Source: Rhexocercosporidium sp. MPI-PUGE-AT-0058
Taxonomy: Eukaryota > Ascomycota > Leotiomycetes > Helotiales
Length of the DNA stretch: 64,000 bases
Assembly (NCBI GenBank): GCA_020746875.1
Contig: JAGTJL010000008.1
Span: 1,426,001 to 1,490,000 of the forward strand
Reading direction: 5' to 3'
This document shows positions 12,796-61,975 of the stretch, in pieces. Positions within the stretch are counted from its first letter, which is position 1, and each line of letters starts with the position of its first letter. A program made the position numbers and the translations under genes. Below the pieces are notes generated by a model, which had not been told where the DNA came from, searched no databases, and worked only from the letters and a program-made list of their open reading frames with translations.

Positions 12796-14032
12796 TCATA
12801 TTGGTTCTTGATCACCAGCAACCTCCTCATCGTCATCTTCTTCGTCAAGATCCTCCAATGGAAATGTGAGAATGGCAGCAATTCCGCCCAGCCCTTCTAA
12901 CCTCTTCCCACTTTCATGATCACTGCTGAGCACCCTAGCGTCACCTCCTTCCTCCTTGACTTTATCCACCAAAGTAACCCATCGCTTCCGAGTTCCAATT
13001 TCCTGACTCCGAAACAGAGCATTGCTGATAAGCAAGACTCCACCACCACGTCCAACTGCACCTTTGTCAACAGCTTGCTCGACTTCCGTCGGCCCATACC
13101 ACGCTCTTCCATCGTCCTTTCGAAGCAGCGTCATGAAGTCATCCATGAATCGGGTTTCTCTTGAATATTTGGTGTCCTTCAATTTCGCTAGTACTTCAGG
13201 ACTCTTCAGGACTTCGTTCAAGCTGTGAAGATGGCCCGAGCTCGAATGAACGACCACAAAATTGCTCTTGTTTGCTAATACAGCCTTTTCCGCTTTTCGT
13301 GTGGCCTCGTCGATGATATACTTCTGGAATCCAGCAGCTGTGAATCCGGGACTTGCAAGTAACAGAGGCCTCGGTTGCGTGATGTCGACATGCCGCTTCA
13401 ATGTCTCCAGTGTTGTCTCGTAGAATTTTATCAAGCCTTTGTCGTGATCGCCTGCCCTGCCAGATCTTTTCCTCGGAATGCCAGTCTCAACCCTTTGCTT
13501 CAATATCGTTTGGTGCTCTGTGATGAGACAAATGTTCGCCATACCCTCTTGCATGACCACTGCTGGCACAGTCCCTTCCTTATCCTGCTTGACTGCTTCC
13601 CTTACCACGTCCAGGGCCACAGAGTCCCATCCTTGGCTCTTCTCGAGAGTGAAGTTCCGTTGTAGCTCTAGGTCGAGGGTATGGAACGCGCCGACCTTCA
13701 CCCACTTGTTCTCTTCTGCCACTTGCCCACTAACATGCAGCTGTCCGGCTTGCGGATCAAAGTCGATAGACGTGACTCGAATAAGTAGAGTGATGTGAAC
13801 TCGTGTGGAGGATGTGCTGCCTGTAGCAGACTCGGTCGTTACACGACGGATAGCGCTTGCGCGGAGGAGATCAGTAGGTGCGATGAGATTGTAGGCATGC
13901 CACTATCGCCAATTAATTCGCTTGGGAAGAGAGTTCCTAGAGAGGAGGGAATACCATGTCTTCTGGTTCTTCAGGGAACAGGGTGATGGTTCCAGAGCCA
14001 TCGCGCTCAATGTTCTGCTTGATGAGGCGCAT
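12796..14032 (-). CDS. DOM34: Dom34/Pelota ribosome rescue factor
   Basis: Two exons on the minus strand (13955-14032, 12796-13902) encode 394 residues, near the length of yeast Dom34 (386). The N-terminus MRLIKQNIERDGSG and the block EDMWHAYNLIAPTDLLRASAIRRVTTE (split by the intron) are the Sm-like domain A signature. The central domain has LLLASPGFTAAGFQKYI in place of the GGQ of eRF1, so it does not hydrolyse peptidyl-tRNA. The C-terminal domain ends in an acidic tail (DLDEEDDDEEV). Known role: with Hbs1 it binds the empty A site of stalled ribosomes and triggers splitting in no-go and non-stop decay. Nothing unusual in the gene. Confidence 0.95.
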
Positions 14033-19597: not shown

Positions 19598-22500
19598 TTA
19601 TCCTTGAAGAGCGTTCACCAAAGCTGGGTTTGATTGGATCCTGTGATGATCGAGAAGTCAGCAATTACTCGTGTACACTTGTCTCAGGAGCACTTTTAGG
19701 AGTAAAGTACTTCCGAGACACTCAAAAATCTGGGAAGTGGCCACTGCCCGAACAACGTACAAACTTGGATTCTTTTCGGCGATGAACTTGACTGTTGCGA
19801 TGACCTTGGCTCGGGTCTCATCCTCGAGCTGCTCGGATGGCTCGCCGAGGACGGCTGCGAAGACGGGGATGAGTTGTGGGGTGAGAGAGATGACGGCTGC
19901 GTTCTGGTGTTGATCTAGGTAGTCTGTTAGCAAATGGAATTGAAATGAGGGTTTGGAGACAACTTACACAATCCAGCGATGCAGGTGTAGATGGGCTCGT
20001 TCTCCTCATAGTCTTCCTTCAATGGAAGGAGGTCAACGAGAACTGGCAAGATATCGTCGATAGGGACCTTGTCTGGGTGGGCCATGATCATGCGAGTGAC
20101 ACATCCACAAGAGTTATCCAGAGTTCGGGCACGCTGGGTTTGGAGGAGCGGCTCGAGCTTAGAGAGGATTGTGTTGTAGCTTGGGAGGTAGGCGGCTGAG
20201 TCTGTGGAGTAGAAGATCAACAGTCCAATGGCATATGCGGCATTAGACTTGGTCTCCGGGTCCTCGTCCGTCAGCTTGTGGATGAGAAGCTTGAGAAGTG
20301 GTGCAGTGAATGGAGTGACACCAGCGCCCATGTGTCTTGTACATTCAGCGATGACACCGACGGCTGTTGATCGCTCGTAGCTGGTAGATGAAGACGCAAA
20401 CTTGGTGATTGCCTTTTGGTAAACTTTGAAGAGTTCACCAAACTGCTCACCGAGTGCCTTTGCCATGCCGATGATTACGTCAAGGGCAGTGTCAATGACG
20501 AGCCAATCATACTCCGAGGACTCCTCTTCGTCCAAGTCATCATGGTCATCTTCATCACCCATATCATTCTGGCAAGGATGTGTCTTGGTAAGAATGGTGG
20601 CAACGGTTGAAGTCATGCGCTCAGTGAACTTGTCTTGGGTCATGATAGCTGGACCGCAGAGCTTCAAGGACGCGGAGACGTTGCGGTTGATATCGGTAAC
20701 AACTGCCCTATTGAGCCCAAGTAGTTAGCAGATGCAAAACTCATTGTCAACAGATGGAGAGTATTTGCTGTCTGATCAGAATGTAAATACGTGTTCGCAG
20801 CATTCGCAACTTGTGCGTCTGAGTGAGCTGGGTATAACGTCATGTGACTCATCATTTCAGGAGATTCTGCAAAGGGGAACTGTATGAGAAGAGAGCTTAC
20901 CGGTCAACTTCATCGTCCCAAACAGACATTGTCGCAACAGTGACAACTTCTCCAAGCTTGAGCAGCTCTTCGGAAGGTTGGGACTTTAGAGGCAAGCCTG
21001 GAGTCCACTTCTCGCCAGTGTGATCCTCCATCAAGGCCCACAGGCATGCATATGCGCGCCAGAGGGTACCGATAGCAGCCTTTCGTACTCCCTCATAAGA
21101 ATGCTCTACTAACACCACGATGGTCTCAATTGCCTTCTCGAAGTATGGCATGAAGTTCTTCCGAGTATTGGTCAAAACATCTCCTAACACTTCAATAGCA
21201 ACCTCCTTCTCCAAGGCAACAGCAGTCACAGCTGTGAGATCATCCCAGTCCTCATCCTCATCTCCGTCATCCTCCATGTTGTCGAGGTCATCAATCTCCA
21301 CTTTGTGATCTGGGGTAACAAGCTTGACCTTCTTTCCTGCGATGACAACCTCGTCTCCGAGCAACTCCTTTGCCTCTTCACCAATCTCGAAATCGAGATC
21401 AGACTCCTCTTGGTTTAGTGATGCCATGATGGCGCCGACTACACCCTCAAGGAATGGTGTAAACTCTTCTTTGTAGACCTTAGCCAAGGTACTCCAGAGA
21501 ATGTAACTGGTCTCTCGCAATCTTGGGTGGCCGAGGTTCAAGCCTTCCTCACTGGCTTGCATCAGGGGCTGGACGTATTTTTGGAAAGCTACAGGACCAA
21601 CTGCCTCTGCCATGCTTCCCATAGAATCAGTGACGATGCCTCGTAGATCAAGCTCCTCGGTACTGTCTTTGATGGTGACATATTTAGACATGGCATCCAT
21701 AGTACCTTCGAAGTATGGTAGGAAAGCATCCAACGCAGAGCCAGCAATGGACCCAATTGCACCAGCAGCACTTGCTTTGACATTGAGATCCTCGTGGCCG
21801 AGGAGTTGGACAAGACGGGGGACAAGCTCTGGGACATATGAAGCCACGGTTGCCTTGTCGACGCCATCTGTGACGGAATCCAAAGCACTGCAAGCAGCCT
21901 TCAAGATCTCGAGGTTCTTGTCCTTTTCAGCCTGGCTAGATGCCTGGCCAGTGGCAGCATCAAGGTTCTTGACTAAAGCTGGAATGAGCTCTGCATGATG
22001 CTTGCACAGCTCTTCGGCAAGATCGTCGGCCAATCTGGCAACACCATTGAGAGCAGCGCCTCGAACACCAATCACTGGGTCGTTGAGTAGCTTCAGAACT
22101 ACTGGCATCAGACCGTCGAGTTGAGTTGCAATAAAATCCGGTGCTCCTTCAACACACATACCAAGGGACAGAATGCCAGCTTGGCGATATTTCGGCTGGT
22201 CACTGTTGACATATTGTGGCAAGGCCGACAATAGAGGCACAATAACCTGGCGGGGAGGGAGGCTGGTAGCTAGAAGGTCCAAAAGACCAAGGGCCGTCTT
22301 GTGGGGGGTAACATCGTCCTCATCCTCATCATCATCAATCTCGGTGGCAATTTTCATAGCCTTGAGAGTCAAGTTCTCTCCCATATCCTTGATTCCTTGG
22401 ATCTTCATCTTTCTGTATCTTGCGCACTGCATCAAGAAAGATAGAGCTTGTGTTCGGGACTCATCTTGGATGTTTGAATCGGCGGCCAGGTCGATCATGA

Positions 22501-23315
22501 AAGTCAAGAGGTCCTTGAAATGCTTGTTGAGTAACGCAGATTCACATCCTAGAAGTGTCTGGAAGACCTCAAACGCCTGCATGACGCGATCCTCATTCTC
22601 CTCATCAACGGCACCCTTCAGCACAGCCACCATGGAAGGGAAAATTTCCGTGAATCGGGCTAGATTTTCCGGGTCCTCTTCTGGCTGAATCAACATAGCA
22701 ACTCTGCTAAGACAGAGCAGCGTGTTGACGCGAACATCAGGGCTCTCGGGATCCTTGATGGTGTTGCTCAACAGGGAGAAAAGACCAGGCAGCTTATCCT
22801 CGAAGACATCCCCCGCGGTTTCGAGCAAGGAAAAGAGTGTGTAGATTCCAACTTCGCGGTGTGCGACTTTGTCAGATGTAGAGGCTTGGAAGAGGCTGTT
22901 GGGAAGGGAAGCCCACTCTCCATCTTCCAAATCGATAGCAGCGATAGAGGCAATAACGCGTGCAGCGGAGTGTCGAACAAGAGGCTTGGATTCATTGAGA
23001 GTGGACTCGAAAAGCTTTTCGCGAATCGCTGGCTTCTGCTCATCAGGTAGAGCCACCCAGTGTTTTGAGATCAAACGGAGTGCCTCTACGGCAGCTTGTT
23101 GGCGGATTTCGGGAGCATCGTGGGAGGTGAGAATGTGCAAGAGCCACAGCAGAGATTGCGGTTGAGGATAATAGGTCTTTCGAAGTTCGGTGGTCGCGGC
23201 CTTGACGATCTCAGTGTCCGCTGGAAATAATTAGCAGATTGATGGCGGGGTCAAGATGTGAAAACAAACGGGTTTGGATGCCCTTCAAGAGCTCAAGGAA
23301 CTTTTGTTGGTCCAT
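19598..23315 (-). CDS. KAP123: Importin Kap123 (importin-4 family karyopherin)
   Basis: Five minus-strand exons (23270-23315, 20901-23220, 19968-20707, 19761-19923, 19598-19640) sum to 3312 nt, 1103 residues; yeast Kap123 has 1113. It opens MDQQKFLELLKGIQT and continues with HEAT repeats throughout, for example HDAPEIRQQAAVEALRLISKHW, typical of the family. An acidic loop (DDDEDEDDVTPHKTALGLLDLL, then EDDGDEDEDWDDLTAVT) matches the importin-4 arrangement. The last exon gives EKNPSLIQSNPALVNALQG. Kap123 carries ribosomal proteins and histones H3/H4 into the nucleus under RanGTP control. The intron at 20708-20900 is 193 nt, long for this genome. All joins keep the frame. Confidence 0.95.
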
Positions 23316-34137: not shown

Positions 34138-37100
34138 CTACCTCAACGGCGACCCACCCAATCCCCCTTTCCCAGGCGTCCATCCAGAACTAAATGTCGT
34201 ACTTCCCGTGCCAGGCGCAAGCCCAATCGGCTTCCTCACCGGTGTCGTAGGACCCGAGCCAGAGCCAGCGGCAGCAACTCCATGATGTGCGCCCTCGATC
34301 GCCAAATCCGGCGTCTGCGTCCTCTCAATAAGATGGCCATCCTTCCTCGCAGCAGGGGCTTTAAACCCCATACTCCTCCCATTCTGATAGATGTCCTGGA
34401 TCATCAGCTCTAAGATCCCCGCGTCCTGGAACTCCAGAAACTTCTTGTAGAGCTTCAGCGCCGTGCGCGCGTCCTCGATACTATCGTGCGTCTCGAGCTG
34501 GATCTCTTCTTTGAGTAGATACGACGCCAGGAAGGAGAGAGAGAGCCGTCGCAGGTGCGACGCACTGTAGAAGAGGTCGATCGTATCGATGACTTTACTC
34601 TTCGGGATGTGGACGTTCAGGACGCGGAAATCCTGCTTGAGGCCGTGGCCGAGGAATTTGCAGCCGAGGTTTAGGAGAATCCAGAGTTTCTTGTAGACGA
34701 CTTTCAGGGCGACGAGGTTGTGTTTGGAGACACCCGGGTCGAGGTCGCCTTTGCGGATCCCCGAGTATTCGGTTAGGTAGTCGACTACTGTGTCGCGAAT
34801 GTGGATGTAGTCGTCGATGAAGGGGAGGCCTTCGTCTTCGCCTGAGCAGCGGACGACGGAGACGCGGGCGAGGGCGTAGACTATGGGACGGACGGTTGTT
34901 CGGTCGCCTTTGGCGTTTACTTCTATCTCTGGTCGTCTTACGGAAACGAATTCTGTATCTAGGGCAATGATCGTTCCCTCGATAGGGGCTTCTTGTGGGA
35001 ATGCGAGAGGTCGATAAGTCTTCACTGGATTGGAACTGTAGAGGTGTCAACTTAGCGAGTTTTTGTTTTGAAAGGAAGGCCGTGACTGACTTGGAATCCG
35101 TATAGAGGACTTTTGTATCCAAGGTCTGTTTCCAGCTATCATCAATCTTGTTGTTATATGCTTTGACCTGATATGTGATCACAGAAGGCAGCTTCCACGT
35201 TGTGTTGAATGTCAATGCTTCTGCCGCCTTGATAGGGCGAACGAGGAAATCGTTGAACAGATGCCATCGGCTTTCATCTGGCTTCGTCGGCAAAGAGTGT
35301 GCAACTGAATTCTGTGAGCTTTGAAAGATTCATTCATGAGTATTTGCTTACCATTTACTAGAGAGACAAGATGTGCCTTCTGATTTACACCGCTCATGAT
35401 CTCTGCAGCAACTCCAACCAACGAATACACAGTGATGTTATGCATTCCACGCTGAATGTGGAGTTTCAGATCGTCACCTTGATAGCAAAAGAATTGGCCC
35501 TGATCAATTATTATTCCAATCTCCTCTGGTAGCCAACCGGGTACAGCCCAAAACTGTTTGGCTTCGGGGCTGTTGACAGCAGCATTGAGCATCAGGATAG
35601 CGGGCACGCCATGAATGGTCTTTTTCGTCGCAAGAGACTGATACCGCTGACATCTGCTACACCATCCTCGACTAGTCGTCTCACGCTCAACACTTGATTT
35701 GAGAATCTGGGAAAATGATGGCTTCTGAGCTCTTGCATTGCGGACGAGAATTTTCTGTTACTGATCAGTTAATAGTCTAGATAAGCATAACTCCGACTTA
35801 CTGGCAGTGGATAGAGAAGTTCGTTGACAAATGTAGTCCCAGGTCTAGTGTGCTCGCTTCGGCAAGCCATGCAACGAATCCCAGTTGTTGCTGAAGTGGC
35901 CAGAATCTATCAGAGTAAGCGAAGCCTTGCAGAATAATAGGAGGTGTTACCTGATCAAACACTGGATTCTGTGGAAGTATGCTTTTCCAATCTTGAGTGA
36001 GTCGATCCAATAAAAAGCGATTCAGTCCTTGCAGCATAGTAGTCAGGGATGAGCCAAGTGCATCTTCTTCCAACAAACCCAAGGGCCCGGCTATCACCGA
36101 TCAGTAAACATTCACCTCAAGAAAGCCATAATTCTTTACCTTGTGGCTGGTAACTGAACGTTTTCAGAAAGTTCGTAGCCTGGCAAATAGACCCTTCGGC
36201 CCTCTCAAGCATGTCAAATAGGAAACCCATCTCACACAGCAGACACAGCTCATTAACACATCTCGTTGCAGTATGTTGCAAAGCAAGATTGCGAATCAGA
36301 GGAGTGAAATGTAAAATCTGCAGCAATGGATTGGCGTAGGAGTTCGGGATGTGGATTTCCAGGCCAGAGTATTTTGTCTTGTTGTAGTATCTAGAAATGG
36401 TTAAGTATGCCCAGTTCAGTTCACAGGGGGACACCTACCCGAAATCAAAGTCGTCCACTCCAAATTTACTGTACTTGATCTCCACGTTTTCATACCACAC
36501 AGGCACGTCTGCTTTCAGACTCAGAACCTCGTTGGCCCCGATGTCGTCGGCATTGCTAGATCTTCGTTCCCCAGACCCGTCGTTAGAAGCCTCTCTCGCT
36601 TTTTCACTCAAAAATTTGGGGGCCTGTAAACTGGCGGGCGTCTTCTCGAAAGTCCTGGTATTCTCGACTTGGTTTCTCTTGAGGGTACGGTTGTTGCGCC
36701 CATAACCGCCCCATTCAGTAGCTTTCAATGATGCCAGAAATTGCTGGTCTATTTTTGGAGGTGGAGCGCCAGTCTCAAAGATCAAATGACTTGGCCAGGA
36801 TGATAGTAACTGCTCACGGTAGTATGGCATGCCGATGCTACTCAGCGGGCTGAAGGCGATTAGAAATGTACATAGTGCTGAAGAATCATGCTTACGTATT
36901 GGGACTCCAATCGACTTCAATGTGAGATTCTTCTGGATCAGCAAACTCCACCGGGTTACTGACATCTCCAAAGCGCATCCTCGAAGGAGATCCCCACAAA
37001 TGAATATTGCATTCAGCATCTGCTAAGACGAGGGCCTCCCCAGATGGTGCGATTTCAATCATGCTAATGTAGGCCAGAGTGCTTACTTGCTTTATGTTGC

Positions 37101-38156
37101 TTGAATTGGGGTTCATGAGATCAACTATATGCATTTGGCCATGCTGGGATACAACAATTAAAGTTGTTGACATTCGCGGGTGCATCCGCAGGTATGCTGC
37201 CCCAGCAGGAAAAGGAACCGGACTCGAGGCAACCATGTTCTTCAGATCAAAGACATTGACCATCACATCCAGAATATAGGGTTGCCCCTGCCGTAGTTGA
37301 CATCCACAACTGACAATAAAGTCATTTTGTGCATCCATATCATGAATAAGTGATGAATGGGCGTTCCAGACTTTGACGACATGGAAGTCAGAAGGATCCA
37401 GAATGTTGATAGAGCCTCTTTGGGTGGCAGCACATATGTATCGACTTCGCCTCATCATGGTGTATTGATCACTGGTAGGGATCTGAGGTTTTAGTACAAA
37501 GAGCTCTTGCGGCTTGGATTGGCGAAGTACCTGTTTCGCGATAGTGCCCTTCTCTACATCAATAACAAACATCTGGTCTTGTAGCCCAGCAACTAGAATC
37601 TCCCCGGTCCCTTTATTTGTGTAACTCATGCATCGGAGGTCCTTCATTTCATTGTGGCTATGTCAATATATCAGCTTCGTTGCAACATATGGTCTGGGCA
37701 GACGTACGTGATATGCCATATCGGAGGGCCCCTTCTCATTGCCATATGCACACTCTTGGACCCCAAAGCAATGACCCCTTTGTCATGGAACAGCAACTGG
37801 TGAACGGGGCCATCTCCGCATTTGAATGAGGTATATCGTTGGAGCTCATTACCGTAAAAAGCAGAGACGCGTCCGAATTGGTTCCCGCACCAGAGCAATT
37901 CCTGCGAGTTGTCGAATGCGAATGTGGACACAGGCGTTGGGAGCGCCTGAGGCCCAGGAGGCGGAAGGAGCAGACGCCCGACCTGTCATAAAACAATTCA
38001 GTATTTCATCAAAGTGAAGCTATCGAGGATGCCGAGGGCGTCCCTCGAGGCTGAAGCCCCGCTGAGTGAGGGTCTTGGATATGCCTCCTCAACCAGCGGA
38101 CGCAAAGAGTGGCTTGCAGTTTTGAAGTGACTTACTTCCTCCCAATCGCCATCCAT
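34138..38156 (-). CDS. PAN2: PAN2, catalytic subunit of the Pan2-Pan3 deadenylase
   Basis: Ten minus-strand exons join without a frame break: 38136-38156, 37708-37982, 36896-37657, 36439-36849, 36140-36390, 35951-36090, 35802-35906, 35352-35754, 35091-35304 and 34138-35035. They give 1159 residues, the usual size. The first exon is only 21 nt (MDGDWEE). The N-terminal half is a WD40 domain ([20 protein letters not shown] onward). It is followed by the linker that binds Pan3 and by the inactive ubiquitin-hydrolase-like domain with a zinc-binding [10 protein letters not shown]. The C-terminal DEDD exonuclease domain starts near residue 865; its first acidic pair is in LDTEF (Asp887, Glu889), with [12 protein letters not shown] and [11 protein letters not shown] carrying the others. 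It trims poly(A) tails in the cytoplasm as the first step of mRNA decay. Confidence 0.95.
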
Positions 38157-40547: not shown

Positions 40548-41551
40548 TTATACCTCCTCCATTTGTCCCGCTGGCTCCTCATCCTCATCGTCACCGAAGC
40601 TTCCTACTGAAGACATATCGTCATCATCGTCCGTCTCGGCCCCAGCATCGTCCGCGGCTTCCTTGCTGGCATACTTGGCGACATATTCTGTAAAGTATCA
40701 GCTACGTTCAACAGCTCTTACCATTATTCACCCACCCTTGACCTTAGCATCGTAGCTCTTTGGTTCCCGCATCAGTAACGCAGCAGCCTCGCCATTCAGA
40801 GGATCTGTAGGATTTGGGTATCGAAGGAGCTGTGGGAGGAAGACTTCGAAGATGTTGATCATGTCGAACATGGGGGACCACGTCTGGTTGATTACGTCGA
40901 GGCAGACGGAACCGGATCTAGTCCTCCATCAGAATGTGCCCAATTGTTTCAGAAAGGTCCATACAACTCGTCAATATTTGGGTGAAATATGCGGTTCACA
41001 AAACCGATGCTTGGTGATTTGTAGGGGTACTGATCTGGCAGCTCGACATGAACCTTCCATAGGCCACCCTGAAATGGTGCTACACTTCATCAGATCTCTA
41101 ATTCACATCGCACCTACGTCGAACCTACTCTCTTCGGGTCCCTTGAATCGGACGTAGAATTCCTGCCTATTCCCGACCTATCAATATCTCATGAGGTCAT
41201 CTCGAATATGGGGAGGACATACACTAAATGGGAATCAGTACTTGGAGGAGGAGGAGGAGGATGACTTGAAGCAACTTACTGTTATCATTGACCAGAGTAA
41301 CCTCATAGTCGCTCATCAACCTAGTAACCATCAGCTTCTCCCCAAATCCCAACCTGTAAAGTTTGGAGGGTGTGCATACATCCTAGAAATCTTCGTTAGC
41401 AGTGGCACTACAGTCGAACCAGCCGGAGACTTGACCTACTTCATGACCTATTAACCACAAACAACAGTCAGTCTCTGCCGCTCTCCTCTACATGTTCCAA
41501 GTTTTATTCCTCACTTACATCCGTCTCAATACGTCGTCTTGGGGAAGACAT
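40548..41551 (-). CDS. UBC8: Ubiquitin-conjugating enzyme E2, Ubc8/UBE2H type
   Basis: Nine minus-strand exons: 41519-41551, 41440-41447 (8 nt), 41380-41382 (3 nt), 41280-41320, 41223 (1 nt), 41129-41166, 40965-41079, 40736-40917 and 40548-40687. They total 561 nt, 186 residues. The E2 fold is clear: [36 protein letters not shown], then HPN at 74-76 and the active-site Cys85 in [15 protein letters not shown], as in yeast Ubc8. The C-terminal tail is acidic. Yeast Ubc8 works with the GID ligase to mark gluconeogenic enzymes for destruction. Met15 and Met29, expected at these positions in fungal homologues, are both encoded across splice joins: AA-G, AT-G around the 3-nt exon, and A-T-G with the 1-nt exon supplying the middle base. 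All joins use GT-AG ends. Confidence 0.9.
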
Positions 41552-44614: not shown

Positions 44615-46201
44615 TCAATCCCGTAATGCCTCGATATCTACAACCTCCTTGACGGCCTCTGTAGTCAAAATGAGTGGTGAGTCATCCTGGACGCAAACAC
44701 TGTCTTCTATTCTGATACCCATGCCTCTGAAATGTGCTGGCCATCTTTCATCATCTGGAACATATATTCCTGGCTCGATAGTAACACAGTGACCGGCCTT
44801 CAGCGGTATCGAGCGAGGATATCCAGGGCAGTCATGAACATCTAGCCCGACGTAGTGCCCAACATGATGAGGGAAGAGAACATCCATGGCGTCCCCACTC
44901 ATATTGAAGCCTAGAGACTTAAGTCCCTCTTTCAGCCCATGCTCTGTAATCTGATGGATCTTATCCAGTGTCATGTTTGAGCTCTCTCTGCAGAGTGATA
45001 CACTGCTCCTCTGAACTCGTAGTACAGCTTCGTAAAGGTCCTTTTGGGGATCGGAGAATTTCCCATTGATAGGCCAGGACCTTGTGATATCTGTAATGTA
45101 ACCACCATACTCTCCACCCGCATCCACTAGGACGATTTGGCCGTCTCGAAGCACATCATTATTTCGGACATAATGAATACTCAAAGCATTACTGCCTCCA
45201 GCAATAACGGGAATATATGCAGTCGTGTCACAACCACATACTTTGAAATCGTAGTCCAGGAAAGCTGCTAGATCCTTCTCTTTCGTCCACTCTCGGCGCA
45301 TTGCGTTAGTGATTGCCCTTCCAGAGTATTTTCCAGCAAGTCGCATATTTGTAACCTCAGCTTCGCTCTTGATAATCCTCAGTTCATGCATCAATGGCTT
45401 GAGCGGCTTGATTTTGCTGTCTTTTATCATCTTTTGGAATTCGTTTGGTGGTGCATCTTGGTTCCGAAAGAAAAGCCCAAACCCCGAGCACTTTGCTATA
45501 TCGGTATAGATTTCACTTGCACCTGCAATCAAAGGTGGGAGGAGAGTGTGCAACTGGTTGATGTCACCCGACTACTTTCATCAGCACTTGCTCAGAAGTT
45601 TGAAGAGGTAGACGAACCTCGTCCGCATTGAACACATCTAACGCCGCTTGTTCGCCAGATCGTGCCCCTTCCCATTGTTCTGCTTTTGGATCCTTGGGTC
45701 GGAGAAAAAGGTGGAAAGTATAATCTGCAGAGGATCCCACTCGCTGGATGACAGCTACTGCCTCTGGTTCATTGAATCCAGTCAAGTATAAGAAGTTTGG
45801 TTCTTGGTGAAATTCGTAGAAGACGGCTCCTGATCGGTATTTCGTATTAGATGAAGCCAAGATAGCTATTCCATTGGCAGGTAGACTGGCAGCAAGCTTT
45901 GCTCGTCGGTCAGCATATTCCTGGGCTGTGATGCCAGGAGTTACTGGGGGAAAATGTTAATCATTATCATTCAGAGTTGACCTAGGTACATACTTTCTCC
46001 GGGCCTTAAGATATGCGGATGTGTTTCATAAACAGGTTGTCCAAATTGGAGATCCGCTGCGGATACTGAGGCGTATGTTCTTCGAGATTGGGTTGTGGTG
46101 CGACTTCTCACTGCAGACGCAAGAATTTGGGCTGGATATCTTGCACGGGAGGGTTGGAATGCTTTGTGCAATTGCTGCAAGACAGGTCTCCGGAGTTTCA
46201 T
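44615..46201 (-). CDS. ICP55: Mitochondrial intermediate-cleaving aminopeptidase Icp55
   Basis: Three minus-strand exons (45994-46201, 45618-45943, 44615-45571) give 496 residues. The basic, Ser/Arg-rich N-terminus (MKLRRPVLQQLHKAFQPSRA) is a mitochondrial presequence. The pita-bread metallopeptidase domain has the five metal ligands: two Asp (VDAGGEYGGYITDITRSWP), His (HHVGHYVGLDVHD), Glu (TIEPGIYV) and Glu (IRIEDS). The N-terminal aminopeptidase-P domain begins ITPGITAQEYADRRAKL. Icp55 removes one residue from proteins already cut by the mitochondrial processing peptidase, stabilising them against the N-end rule. It is the yeast counterpart of XPNPEP3. The gene is divergent from the DBF4-like gene with about 500 bases between. 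Confidence 0.93.
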
Positions 46202-46702: not shown

Positions 46703-48888
46703 ATGGCAGCAGTATCGATATCACCCTTGCCTCTCACTCTATCCACCATGTCAGGGAAGAGAGTGCCCCTATCCAGCAACCCCAATGCCGTCAATTCGCC
46801 CTACAGAGCAGTGGCAGCTGCTGCATCCAAGCAGAAACGATCCTATGCCACAATCCAACGCGAAGAAGCGTATGGCCAACCACCGCCGGCTAAGAAGCAG
46901 ATGCTCGAGAACTACCAGACAATCAGAACGCCGCCTCGTCAACAATTGAACCAGAATTCTGTTGAAGGACGTGTGTTTACCCGAAAGTCCAATGCCTCTC
47001 AGCAGTCCGCGTTCGAACGGAAACTGGTTGCGGTCAGGGAGAAGCCCCAGCAGACCGTCACCAAGACGGACAAGACAACTGAAGAGAACTTGGATACCAT
47101 ACGACAATGGCAGAAGCATTACAGGAAGATTTTCCCTACCTTCGTCTTCTACTTTGAGAGTATCTCGGAGGAGGTGCGTATTAAGTATACGAAGCAAGTA
47201 GTTGCACTGGGAGCAGTAAGTCTTGAACCGTGGTTTCCCCCTCATGAATCTGAGTACTAAGAATCATTGTAGCGCGAAGAAAAGTTCTTCTCGAACGCAG
47301 TAACCCATGTTGTGACAACTCGATCCATCCCTCCAGCTCAACCAAGTAACTCGACAGAAGCTCCCATTACTTCTTCGACCAACGATTCGCAAAATAGCCA
47401 GCTTCAGACGATCAACCCCTCCCTTCTAGACCGGTCATCAGAATCAGCAAACACACATTCCGACTTGGGTGGAAGGGGAAAATTCACTTTCGAGGCACCA
47501 ATCAACCGAAGATTGGCACCGCATGGCCAAGATGGAGATATTAGGAGACAACAAGGTCGCAATGCAGATGTTTTGTATAGAGCCCGGGAATTGGGCATGA
47601 AAATATGGGCACTGGAGAAATTACAACGAATGATGAGTGCTATGTTTGATGCGGAAACAGGACAAGCAAACCATGGACACAACACCAGGAGCAATTCAGT
47701 GTCAACAACACTTCCTAGAACAGCACGTGAGGCGGATCTCTCGCAGCTGCTGCGTAATGAGAGGATCAATGGACCTTCAGATCGTGATCCAACGGTGGCA
47801 ACCAAGGAGATCACACTTTTCAAAGGCCCCTTCATCTACATTCACGATATTGATGAGAAGCAACGGCCAATAATGGTTAGAGAGTATGCCAAAGTAGCAC
47901 ACAAAGAGGATGGTGATTGGCCACAATTCCGAAGCGTGGCTAACGGCAAATGCCCCTTCGTTGAGGAGGTTGACTACAGTCAACGAGAAGCCGAGAAAGA
48001 GAAAGAAGCGATTCGGCTTCAGAGGCAGCAGGAAAAGGAGAAGGCAATGATTCCACGGACTCGTGCCGCAACCGCCGTGCAAGCAGCCAGAATGCAACCT
48101 CCGAAGGTCACTGGTAAGCGAACGCTATCTGAAATGGACAATGCCTCAAATCGGAACGTCACCGTCTCAACTAAGCAAACCAATCCATTTGCTCCTAGTA
48201 ACAGCACGTTTTCACAAAAGACGGAACATGAGGCTTCTTCTCGGGGCAATCAGAACGCTTTCGTCAGCCGTGCTGGTGCCGGTCGACTTTTTGGAGGTGA
48301 GCCTGTCGCATCAGGACTTCAGCCATCAAATATCACATCTGCTATCAGATCCACTATGATCTCCTCTACTGCAGCTCAACCAGGAGCTAAAGCTGGAACT
48401 AGTAAGGAGGTCCACGGTCTGCAAAGAAAGGTTCTCGAGAAGAACAGTGGTGGCCCTGGCTCACACGGATTGACAAGCTCTCATCGTATGACCGACATTG
48501 TTGGCGCTGCTAGAGAGGAAATGGTCCGACCGTCTAGATTGCGAGCACAGGATAAAATGACTCTGATTGAGGAGGACATTGATCCCTCTGAAGCCGAGGA
48601 CACTGCAAGAAAAGTTGAAGCTACTCGAAAAGCAAAGGCTGTTCAACAGAGGAAACTCGAGAAGCGGGATCCAAAACCTGGATACTGTGAGAACTGTCAG
48701 GATAAGTTCGAAGACTTTGATGAGGTATGGTGACCCAACCGCTGACCAACAAGATACAATGCTAACATATATTTCAGCACGTCTTGTCTCGAAAGCATCG
48801 AAAGTTCGCTGAGAAGCCTGAGAACTGGAAGGAGCTTGACGCCTTATTGAAGCAGCTTATCCGGCCTCTTCGTGAGGCCGCCTATTGA
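46703..48888 (+). CDS. DBF4: Dbf4/nimO-like regulatory subunit of Cdc7 kinase
   Basis: Three exons (46703-47215, 47273-48724, 48778-48888) encode 691 residues; a second in-frame ATG at 46748 is an alternative start. Three Dbf4 motifs are seen. Motif N is a BRCT-like block at about 140-190 (FPTFVFYFESISEEVRIKY and SNAVTHVVTTRS). Motif M is at about 356-380 (GPFIYIHDIDEKQRPIMVREY). The C-terminal zinc finger has Cys643, Cys646, His656 and His662 (GYCENCQDKF and HVLSRKHRKFA) and is split by intron 2. Dbf4 activates Cdc7, which phosphorylates MCM to fire replication origins; the Aspergillus counterpart is nimO. The regions between motifs are disordered and charged. An MCB site upstream fits S-phase expression. 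Confidence 0.92.
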
Positions 48889-59923: not shown

Positions 59924-61975
59924 CTAAGCTCCAGGAGGCTTCATCTTGCCGCTAGTGTACGATTTCATGATCTTGTTGAAGTCGGATTCGTTGACTACCG
60001 CGCCGGTTTCCGAGCACTTGGCCTTCTTTTGGAGGTCCTTGCAGAGGAGGTCGAGGTCAAATTCACCATCCTTGACCTTGGGGCAGGCCTGTAAGCGATC
60101 CCTGGGATCTCAGTTAGCTATTTGTTCGGGTAATGAAAAGGACCTCGTTTGTAGTTAAGCGAGTCAGAGGTGAGGGTACGTACCAAATTGTGTTACAGCT
60201 CAGCATTTGTGCAGGATCCTCTCCTGGGACAACCTCATCTTCCTCATTCTGCTTCTCGTCGATTTGGGCAACCAGATCCTTCTTAGGTGGAGCAGGACTT
60301 GGTGCCATATTGAATGGACTAGTGAAGTCTCCCAAGGCAAAAGCGTCGGTGAAGAAGGTATCTCCAAAAGGTTCACTCGATAAAATGTTGTCTTGTGGCT
60401 CTCTGTAATCGCCGAAGAGTTGAGGATCGAATTGATTATTGTTTTGTTGAGCGAACCAGTCAATTCCGTTGATATCAAAGGCGGGGGTGTTAAAAGTTCC
60501 TGAATTCGCACCAGGCTCAGACATTGTACGTGGAATGGGATTGTTGGGGTTGCCACAAGCCATGTTAAGCTTATCGCAGAAGGTGAGCTCACCTTCGCCA
60601 GTTGCAATCGTTGCAGAATGTTCCTCGCCAATTGTGGTCAGTGTGCTGTCCAAAGGCTTGCTGTAAACTGGAGATTGCATAGTAGGCTCCGGAGAGGTAC
60701 CGCAAGATGAGCTTGGTCCATGGTTTGAATTCGACGATGCTGAAGGGGAGCTGTATGATGTATTGTGACCAGTACTCATGTTGCCATTAGCAGAATCTGT
60801 GCTGGATCTGGATCCATTTGAGCTGTTGTTATTGTTCGCAAAGTACTCGAATGGTGGAGACTTTCCGACGCTTTCAAGTAGTGAAGGGCTGAAAAGACCA
60901 GAAAGACTTGACATGTCTCCACTGTCAAGTTGAGCGGGGGTTTGTGTCAGACCAGCGCTGGAACCATTGCTTGCTGGGTACTGCAATGATTGATTGCGAG
61001 GACTGATTTGGCCCTTCTCAACTGGACTTAGACCTTGCTTGCTTGCAACAGATGGTGAAGTGGAACTCCTTGTAGGATTGACGATGGTAGTAGCTGGAGG
61101 TCCAGGGAGGCGACCAAATCTCGGGAATTCGAATTGAAAATTGACATCGTTGGGGTTGTTAAGTCCTCCATTGCCAAAGCCCTTGCCTGTAAGGTATGTG
61201 GGCAGGCCGCTGTTGAGGGAAGCATTGCGTCCGGCAGCTCCGCTGAGAGAAAGTCTCTTGCGGTACTCTCGCAACTCCATTGACATCTTCTCGATTTGAG
61301 CACGAAGAATGCTGTTTTCGTGGTTGGCCGACTCTGATGCCTTTTCAAGATCCTCAACCTTGGTCTCCAAGTCCTTCAAATGCTTTTCCTTGCGTTCCCG
61401 GAATGCCCGTTGAGCGGCACGGTTTTGAGCCTTCCGCTTCTGTTACGGACTATCAGCAACAGCCGCGAGCAAGATGGTCACCAAGGAGTACTCACCGAAG
61501 TTGGCTCAGATGTCAAGGGCTTTCGTCCTGGCTTCTTTGCAGCCTTTTCATCGCCCTCTCTTCGCTTTCCACCACCCTCTTCTTCGTTGTCATCATCGTC
61601 AGGATGGCTTCGTTTATCATGATTGTCGTTATCACCATCCGAAGATGTACCTGGCAGATTGCCAATCATTTGGGCTTGCGACTCGTTGTTGAAATCGCCA
61701 TAGTCAAAGCTTCCGTCGCCGTCAAACTCGTAGTCGTAATCAATGAAAGGGCTCTCCTCAAAGCCGTTCAGGGTAGCAGAACCCGGAGCCTGAAGAGGCG
61801 ATTCGGTGAAAGAGCCAGGCGCCATTGTATACTGATCCTTTGATTGGAGGTTGGAGGTATCTAGATTGGAGACTTTGTTATTGGAGTTTAGAGCCGCAAA
61901 CAGAAGCTCCTCTTGACGGGCAGATAGGGTAAATCGAGAGTTGACTGTAGCGGAGCGGGATTGAGTAGAATCCAT
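59924..61975 (-). CDS. YAP1: AP-1-like bZIP transcription factor (Yap1 homologue)
   Basis: Three minus-strand exons (61496-61975, 60184-61439, 59924-60101) encode 637 residues. The acidic N-terminus leads to a bZIP domain at 161-223: basic region KRKAQNRAAQRAFRERKEKH, then a leucine zipper. The n-terminal redox domain holds Cys448 and Cys455 (FCDKLNMACGNP), the same 7-residue spacing as Cys303 and Cys310 of yeast Yap1. The c-terminal domain has SCNTIWDRLQACP and LLCKDLQKKAKCSETG with Cys599 and Cys608 nine apart, again as in Yap1, embedded in the export-signal region. Peroxide forms disulfides between the two domains, hides the export signal, and the factor gathers in the nucleus to induce antioxidant genes. 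Intron 2 (82 nt) separates the c-CRD cysteines. Counterpart of napA and Bap1. Confidence 0.95.

Follow-up and report, generated by a model that had tools for sequence, protein, structure and literature searches.

A highly probable one-nucleotide exon inside the Met29 codon of UBC8 in a filamentous ascomycete

Introduction

How does the reading frame of UBC8 pass from its fourth coding segment to the next sizeable one, when joining the two directly destroys it? The question is raised by a locus within the 64,000-nt stretch of Rhexocercosporidium sp. MPI-PUGE-AT-0058 DNA analysed here, which we call the window and whose positions are used throughout (the genome carrying it measures 62.7 Mb). A sequence-only reading of this DNA had proposed that a lone T provides the central base of one UBC8 Met codon, that the two introns around it may be removed in a stwintron-like manner and that skipping the base could work as an off switch. 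We examined the architecture of the gene, the frame, the probability of the arrangement arising by chance and the corresponding region of homologous proteins. The one-base Met exon was upheld; the stwintron-like and off-switch interpretations were not.

Results

UBC8 is split into nine exons

The minus strand from 41551 to 40548 holds a complete UBC8/UBE2H gene with nine exons and eight introns. The exons measure, in order, 33, 8, 3, 41, 1, 38, 115, 182 and 140 nt, the 5' part of the gene running 33-8-3-41-1-38; the introns are 47-71 nt long and the genomic coding span is 1004 bases. The predicted product of 186 amino acids matches the Pfam family UQ_con (PF00179, E 2e-39) and, among solved structures, is best matched by yeast Ubc8 (8pmq_E, E 3.3e-70) and then by E2 H (8pjn_2). 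With a UQ_con domain and full-length similarity to Ubc8/UBE2H, the predicted protein is assigned to this family of ubiquitin-conjugating (E2) enzymes, whose yeast member works with the GID ligase. The coding segments and the two introns that concern us most are as follows.

41519..41551, minus strand: exon 1, 33 nt, from the start codon, 11 residues; N-terminus identical in the environmental homolog P0002
41440..41447, minus strand: exon 2, an 8-nt micro-exon, GTCATGAA; its omission disrupts the frame and brings a stop at codon 18
41380..41382, minus strand: exon 3, a 3-nt micro-exon, GAT, giving VMK-M-LMSD; placed by splice reading and homologs
41280..41320, minus strand: exon 4, 41 nt, 3' end AAC A
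41224..41279, minus strand: intron 4, 56 nt, GTAAGT ... CTGAT ... TTTAG, phase 1 in codon 29
41223..41223, minus strand: exon 5, putative single-nucleotide exon T, middle base of the Met29 codon; placed by frame and comparative evidence
41167..41222, minus strand: intron 5, 56 nt, GTATGT ... TTGAT ... AATAG, phase 2 in codon 29
41129..41166, minus strand: exon 6, 38 nt, 5' end G CAG GAA TTC
40965..41079, minus strand: exon 7, 115 nt; overlaps a UQ_con match
40736..40917, minus strand: exon 8, 182 nt; overlaps a UQ_con match
40548..40687, minus strand: exon 9, 140 nt, to the stop codon

Among the matches listed, the nearest named relative is Cadophora sp. M221 (99% identity over 85% of the query), whose gene model lacks the region around the one-base exon; further near named relatives are Drepanopeziza brunnea (96%, Helotiales) and a Mollisiaceae isolate (91%). 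Elsewhere in the window, ORF pieces at 12799-13722, 20900-23140, 36895-37647, 44618-45553, 47312-48730 and 60117-61379 have Pfam matches, the families being eRF1 domains, importin-beta-like HEAT repeats, the PAN2 N-terminus, peptidase M24, Dbf4/Dfp1 and PAP1 transcription factor. Three other window ORFs scanned against Pfam gave no match.

A single T restores the frame and the expected Met

The coordinates originally given for the end of exon 4 (41320-41280), the T (41223) and the start of exon 6 (41166) all proved correct. One base lies between an AG and a GT inside an interval bounded by valid outer splice sites, and that base is needed both for the frame and for a conserved residue. Its inclusion assembles A|T|G ahead of CAG GAA TTC and yields NDNMQEF, with the same spacing as yeast Ubc8 (8pmq_E, INDSMQEF); the Met29 codon is split by two introns, one in phase 1 and one in phase 2. 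Joining exon 4 directly to exon 6 loses the frame, and translation then ends in exon 7, at codon 69. The two introns each measure 56 nt, as had been noted, and CTGAT does precede the intron 4 acceptor. The corresponding motif of intron 5, TTGAT, is of the YTRAY type and weaker than CTGAT.

The statement that other acceptors nearby lose the frame went too far. Twenty single-intron joins keep an open frame, though none of the 20 restores NDNMQEF; when the T is left out, either the frame breaks or the protein gains or lacks residues. The closest combines a donor at 41275 (GTTGCT, the inner GT of GTAAGT) with the same acceptor and gives NDNSKQEF, one residue longer. This search covered GT-AG, GC-AG and AT-AC pairs, with donors taken from 30 nt before the end of exon 4 and acceptors up to 30 nt past the start of exon 6.

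The likelihood of a chance occurrence was estimated from 20000 dinucleotide-preserving shuffles of the 113-nt interval, six bases being held fixed at each end. A bare AG-N-GT with at least 45 nt on each side appeared in 1658 shuffles (8.3%), so this pattern by itself is not rare; the full architecture is, YAG-N-GTRNG with YTRAY before both acceptors being found in 3 of the 20000 (2 of the 20000 with T as the single base). In the real interval, AG-N-GT with 45-nt flanks occurs exactly once. The main evidence for the proposed one-base exon is comparative.

Homologs share the Met spacing that most Pezizomycotina gene models lack

Conservation was read from predicted proteins, grouped by hand. Three protein searches were made and the best 120 of 5726, 5713 and 6264 hits were kept, giving 247 distinct proteins that do not form a random sample. 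Three records were left out, two from plants and one a UniRef entry labelled as plant. The groups comprised 69 environmental or assembly-only proteins, 118 gene models from Pezizomycotina (a sample without Orbiliomycetes) and 57 gene models from other fungi. The group nearest to each environmental protein was assigned by identity outside the N-terminal region.

Among these best matches, the exact Met spacing was found in all 50 of the environmental, transcript-like proteins nearest Pezizomycotina and in all 57 gene models of other fungi, as against 17 of the 118 Pezizomycotina models. The remaining 101 of the 118 public models inspected are without the expected residue spacing. The figure of 17 is that of the category table; the count shifts between 16 and 20 with the pattern used, some patterns wrongly letting in three NDNSMQEF models and P0020 (NDNMYDLF) and missing P0142 (KDDNMQEF). 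Only two of the 69 environmental proteins, P0192 and P0247, fall outside the Met pattern, and both are nearest other fungi.

The defects of the Pezizomycotina models cluster at two places. Gaps at residues 26-32 affect 94 of the 118 models, none of the 69 environmental proteins and none of the 57 models from other fungi; gaps at the 3-nt exon affect 60/118, 0/69 and 1/57, respectively. In the other bins of residues 1-146, gaps were seen in 0 to 8 of the 118 models (the 8 at intron 1). The gaps that environmental proteins have elsewhere lie in the intron-7 bin (6/69) and at the N-terminus (3/69).

The closest environmental homolog among the matches listed, P0002, is 95% identical, has 186 amino acids and reads NDNMQEF. 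The longest contig of its cluster, at 928 bases, is shorter than the 1004-base genomic coding span, so this protein presumably derives from cDNA. The same presumption holds for at least the 12 environmental proteins, out of 69, whose longest contig is below 1004 bases; four of these 12 are nearer other fungi. Yeast Ubc8 (8pmq_E) is gap-free over residues 1-102 of the alignment. Human UBE2H lacks one residue immediately ahead of the Met29 place and has Leu instead of Met, indicating that this turn can vary in distant relatives. Related loci were also sought in viral contigs, and none was found. Three prokaryotic E2-like loci in genome contigs have only 31-35% identity and were not used as relatives.

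Many gene-model errors can be read as neighbouring splice sites

A gene finder unable to place an exon of one base would fall back on nearby sites. In 62 of the 118 Pezizomycotina models, the erroneous residues could be decoded as neighbouring splice sites read as codons, the code being read backwards from the predicted proteins of those species. Fifteen models have the form NS(K/E/M/T/G/R)QEF, as would follow from use of the inner GT in a GTNNGT intron-4 donor, the residue after S being set by the donor (K from GTAAGT, E from GTGAGT, M from GTATGT, T from GTACGT and G from GTGGGT). A further 31 begin with S, the outcome expected from reading A|GT into the intron-4 donor, and 16 begin with M-Y or M-F, as if A and T were followed by read-through of a GTATG or GTTTG intron-5 donor. 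The same two beginnings result when the introns of the window gene are retained by computation: intron 4 gives NDNSK.., the S form, and intron 5 gives NDNMYV.., the M-Y form, with 39 residues left.

Carriers of the M-Y and M-F forms include Beauveria, Fusarium, Hortaea, Coniosporium, Aureobasidium, Aspergillus, Penicillium, Paecilomyces and Diplocarpon. Lineages were looked up for Beauveria, Hortaea, A. tamarii, Drepanopeziza, Tuber, Geoglossum and Saitoella. The carriers so placed belong to Sordariomycetes (Beauveria), Dothideomycetes (Hortaea) and Eurotiomycetes (Aspergillus), and Fusarium belongs to Sordariomycetes, Coniosporium and Aureobasidium to Dothideomycetes, Penicillium and Paecilomyces to Eurotiomycetes and Diplocarpon to Leotiomycetes. 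Tuber (Pezizomycetes) reads NSEQEF, and Geoglossum (Geoglossomycetes) has an S form.

The 39 models that remain undecoded comprise 14 NDNKF, 5 NDNRQEF and 20 others. The NDNKF models (P0038, P0048, P0128 and 11 others) come from several genera and all are without Q-E. The five reading NDNRQEF (P0025, P0034, P0045, P0080 and P0154) have the right length with Arg for Met; judging from these proteins, they could be artefacts or could point to genuine local loss of the one-base exon. Some of the 17 correct Pezizomycotina models may in turn reflect intron loss.

Comparable traces surround the 3-nt exon. A read-through signature, MKMY, occurs in 9 of the 118 models (retention of intron 3 in the window gene is computed to give MKMYA), and 37 read K-LMSD or K-MMSD, as if the 3-nt exon had been skipped. 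Skipping exon 3 of the window gene removes one residue (VMK-LMSD) and keeps the frame.

Altogether, the clustered errors and read-through signatures in predicted proteins make a strong, if indirect, case that relatives share the one-base exon, which is probably ancestral to Pezizomycotina.

The two introns could be removed stepwise

Short fungal introns are generally taken as recognised across the intron. Each of the two 56-nt introns could then be defined through its own donor, branch motif and acceptor, and the one-base exon, its neighbours being recognised in this way, would need no exon recognition at all. Only one base separates the AG of intron 4 from the GT of intron 5, leaving little room to engage both sites together, which makes it plausible that introns 4 and 5 leave one after the other.

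U1 duplex energies were -5.6 kcal/mol for the intron 4 donor and -2.6 kcal/mol for that of intron 5; the donors of introns 3 and 7 are equally weak at -1.9 kcal/mol. Having the stronger donor and the better branch motif, intron 4 would most likely leave first. We also considered that its departure might improve the donor of intron 5, an idea we rejected: once intron 4 is joined out, the energy of that donor goes from -2.6 to -1.9 kcal/mol. As joining exon 4 to the T brings no improvement, the order of removal is suggested only weakly.

Alternative explanations

Four other accounts of the locus were weighed. The join closest to the Met pattern implies a single 109-nt intron (donor 41275, acceptor 41167) and no one-base exon. 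Its product, NDNSKQEF, is in frame and open, and it also appears in the Drepanopeziza brunnea model P0003 and five other models. Against this, its donor is poor, the other UBC8 introns measure 47-71 nt, none of the 69 environmental proteins has an insert at the Met29 place and yeast Ubc8 lacks the extra residue. That residue varies among models (K in 6, M in 3, T and E in 2 each, G, R and Q in one each) as the donor letters predict, which fits a gene-finder artefact, and we regard a 109-nt intron as most improbable. The chance that a sequencing or assembly error dropped a base from exon 4 or 6 and so created a false need for the T seems negligible: an indel would indeed create a one-base need, but 94 of 118 gene models from other Pezizomycotina go wrong at this codon too, and the exon residues on either side of it in the window gene match those of its homologs.

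A stwintron, as defined in PMC6616335, is an arrangement in which one intron lies within, and so breaks up, a splice element of another. The presence of two short introns one base apart, in a subphylum where nested introns are known (PMC6616335), lends this idea some appeal. Yet in the genomic sequence neither intron has an interrupted donor, branch motif or acceptor; each carries its own complete set, so that the arrangement lies outside this definition. Moreover, were the removal nested, with A|GT and AG|G as the outer ends, the T would be left out, the frame lost and the stop at codon 69 reached again. We give the stwintron reading next to no chance. The proposed switch, whereby conditional skipping of the base would turn UBC8 off through a frame-shifted, decaying mRNA, is very unlikely. 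The frame shift itself holds: without T41223, translation stops at codon 69, in exon 7 and ahead of further introns, and retention of intron 5 leaves only 39 residues. But neither a gap nor an insert at Met29 occurs in any of the 69 environmental proteins, although this speaks only weakly against a switch, truncated forms being hardly listed by a protein search. Nor is truncation special to exon 5, as no more than 49 residues remain when any of introns 1-6 is retained singly. Regulated inclusion of the one-base exon is unsupported by these data.

Discussion

In conclusion, the one-base exon put forward by the sequence-only reading is upheld by the frame, by the spacing of homologs and by the errors of gene models. 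In our judgement, T41223 is very probably a constitutive one-nucleotide coding exon of UBC8, flanked by two 56-nt GT-AG introns that would be removed stepwise and shared across Pezizomycotina. The fuller proposal is likely as well, on present comparative grounds: the one-base exon and the 3-nt exon some 157 bases upstream would both have been kept since the ancestor of Pezizomycotina, their splicing would depend on obligatory stepwise intron definition and most public gene models would be wrong here.

If so, no other single-nucleotide exon known from fungi would be as widely conserved; the gene that carries it is a core one of the ubiquitin system, and the short-intron spliceosome of Pezizomycotina would join a one-base exon routinely. 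Since the signs span six classes of filamentous ascomycetes, Aspergillus included, such joining can be tested in tractable organisms. Gene finders and splice-aware aligners can readily be benchmarked on UBC8 as well. The literature on one-nucleotide exons, stwintrons and microexons (fungi, Neurospora, ascomycetes), surveyed largely outside subscription journals, showed no title on UBC8 among those listed, which for stwintrons or microexons were 20 of 735, and a search of the same reach pairing UBC8 with microexons found none. As a probable exon of a known type, it is notable for its apparent breadth and frequent mis-annotation.

Mitochondrial single-base exons belong to organellar genes and do not involve spliceosomal introns. 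Such exons are reported for placozoan cox1 (PMC5436844) and for Ophiostoma mitogenomes (PMC12308204). The papers cited here on nuclear genes describe three one-nucleotide exons, two in plants and one in Fusarium, to which UBC8 would add a core gene. A one-nucleotide exon is described in plant APC11, for which Guo and Liu proposed stepwise removal (PMC4674806), and those of APC11 and VPS55 are conserved in land plants (PMC8831610). As in these genes, the UBC8 exon would be a one-base coding exon between two introns, missed by annotation and probably old in its lineage. The plant genes have other functions, though APC11 also belongs to the ubiquitin system; and the Arabidopsis APC11 exon lies in a 422-nt interval and has reporter proof, whereas that of UBC8 sits between two 56-nt introns and is predicted from sequence.

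With the stwintrons of Pezizomycotina (PMC6616335), UBC8 shares two short adjoining introns and, as proposed, stepwise removal. Unlike in stwintrons, a coding base stands between two complete introns, no splice element being interrupted.

A fungal parallel is the Fusarium CYP621A exon, called the first in a fungal gene by its authors (PMC12940212). Both lie in nuclear fungal genes and supply the middle base of a conserved codon (in CYP621A, the Gly of PKG); that exon was found from a phase mismatch, with nearly all gene models wrong, much as in UBC8. The CYP621A exon concerns one P450 subfamily in one genus, its base is G and it is supported by 18 SRA reads (PMC12940212). UBC8, by comparison, encodes a core E2 and has T as the single base; the signs of its exon, drawn from predicted proteins, extend over six classes of Pezizomycotina.
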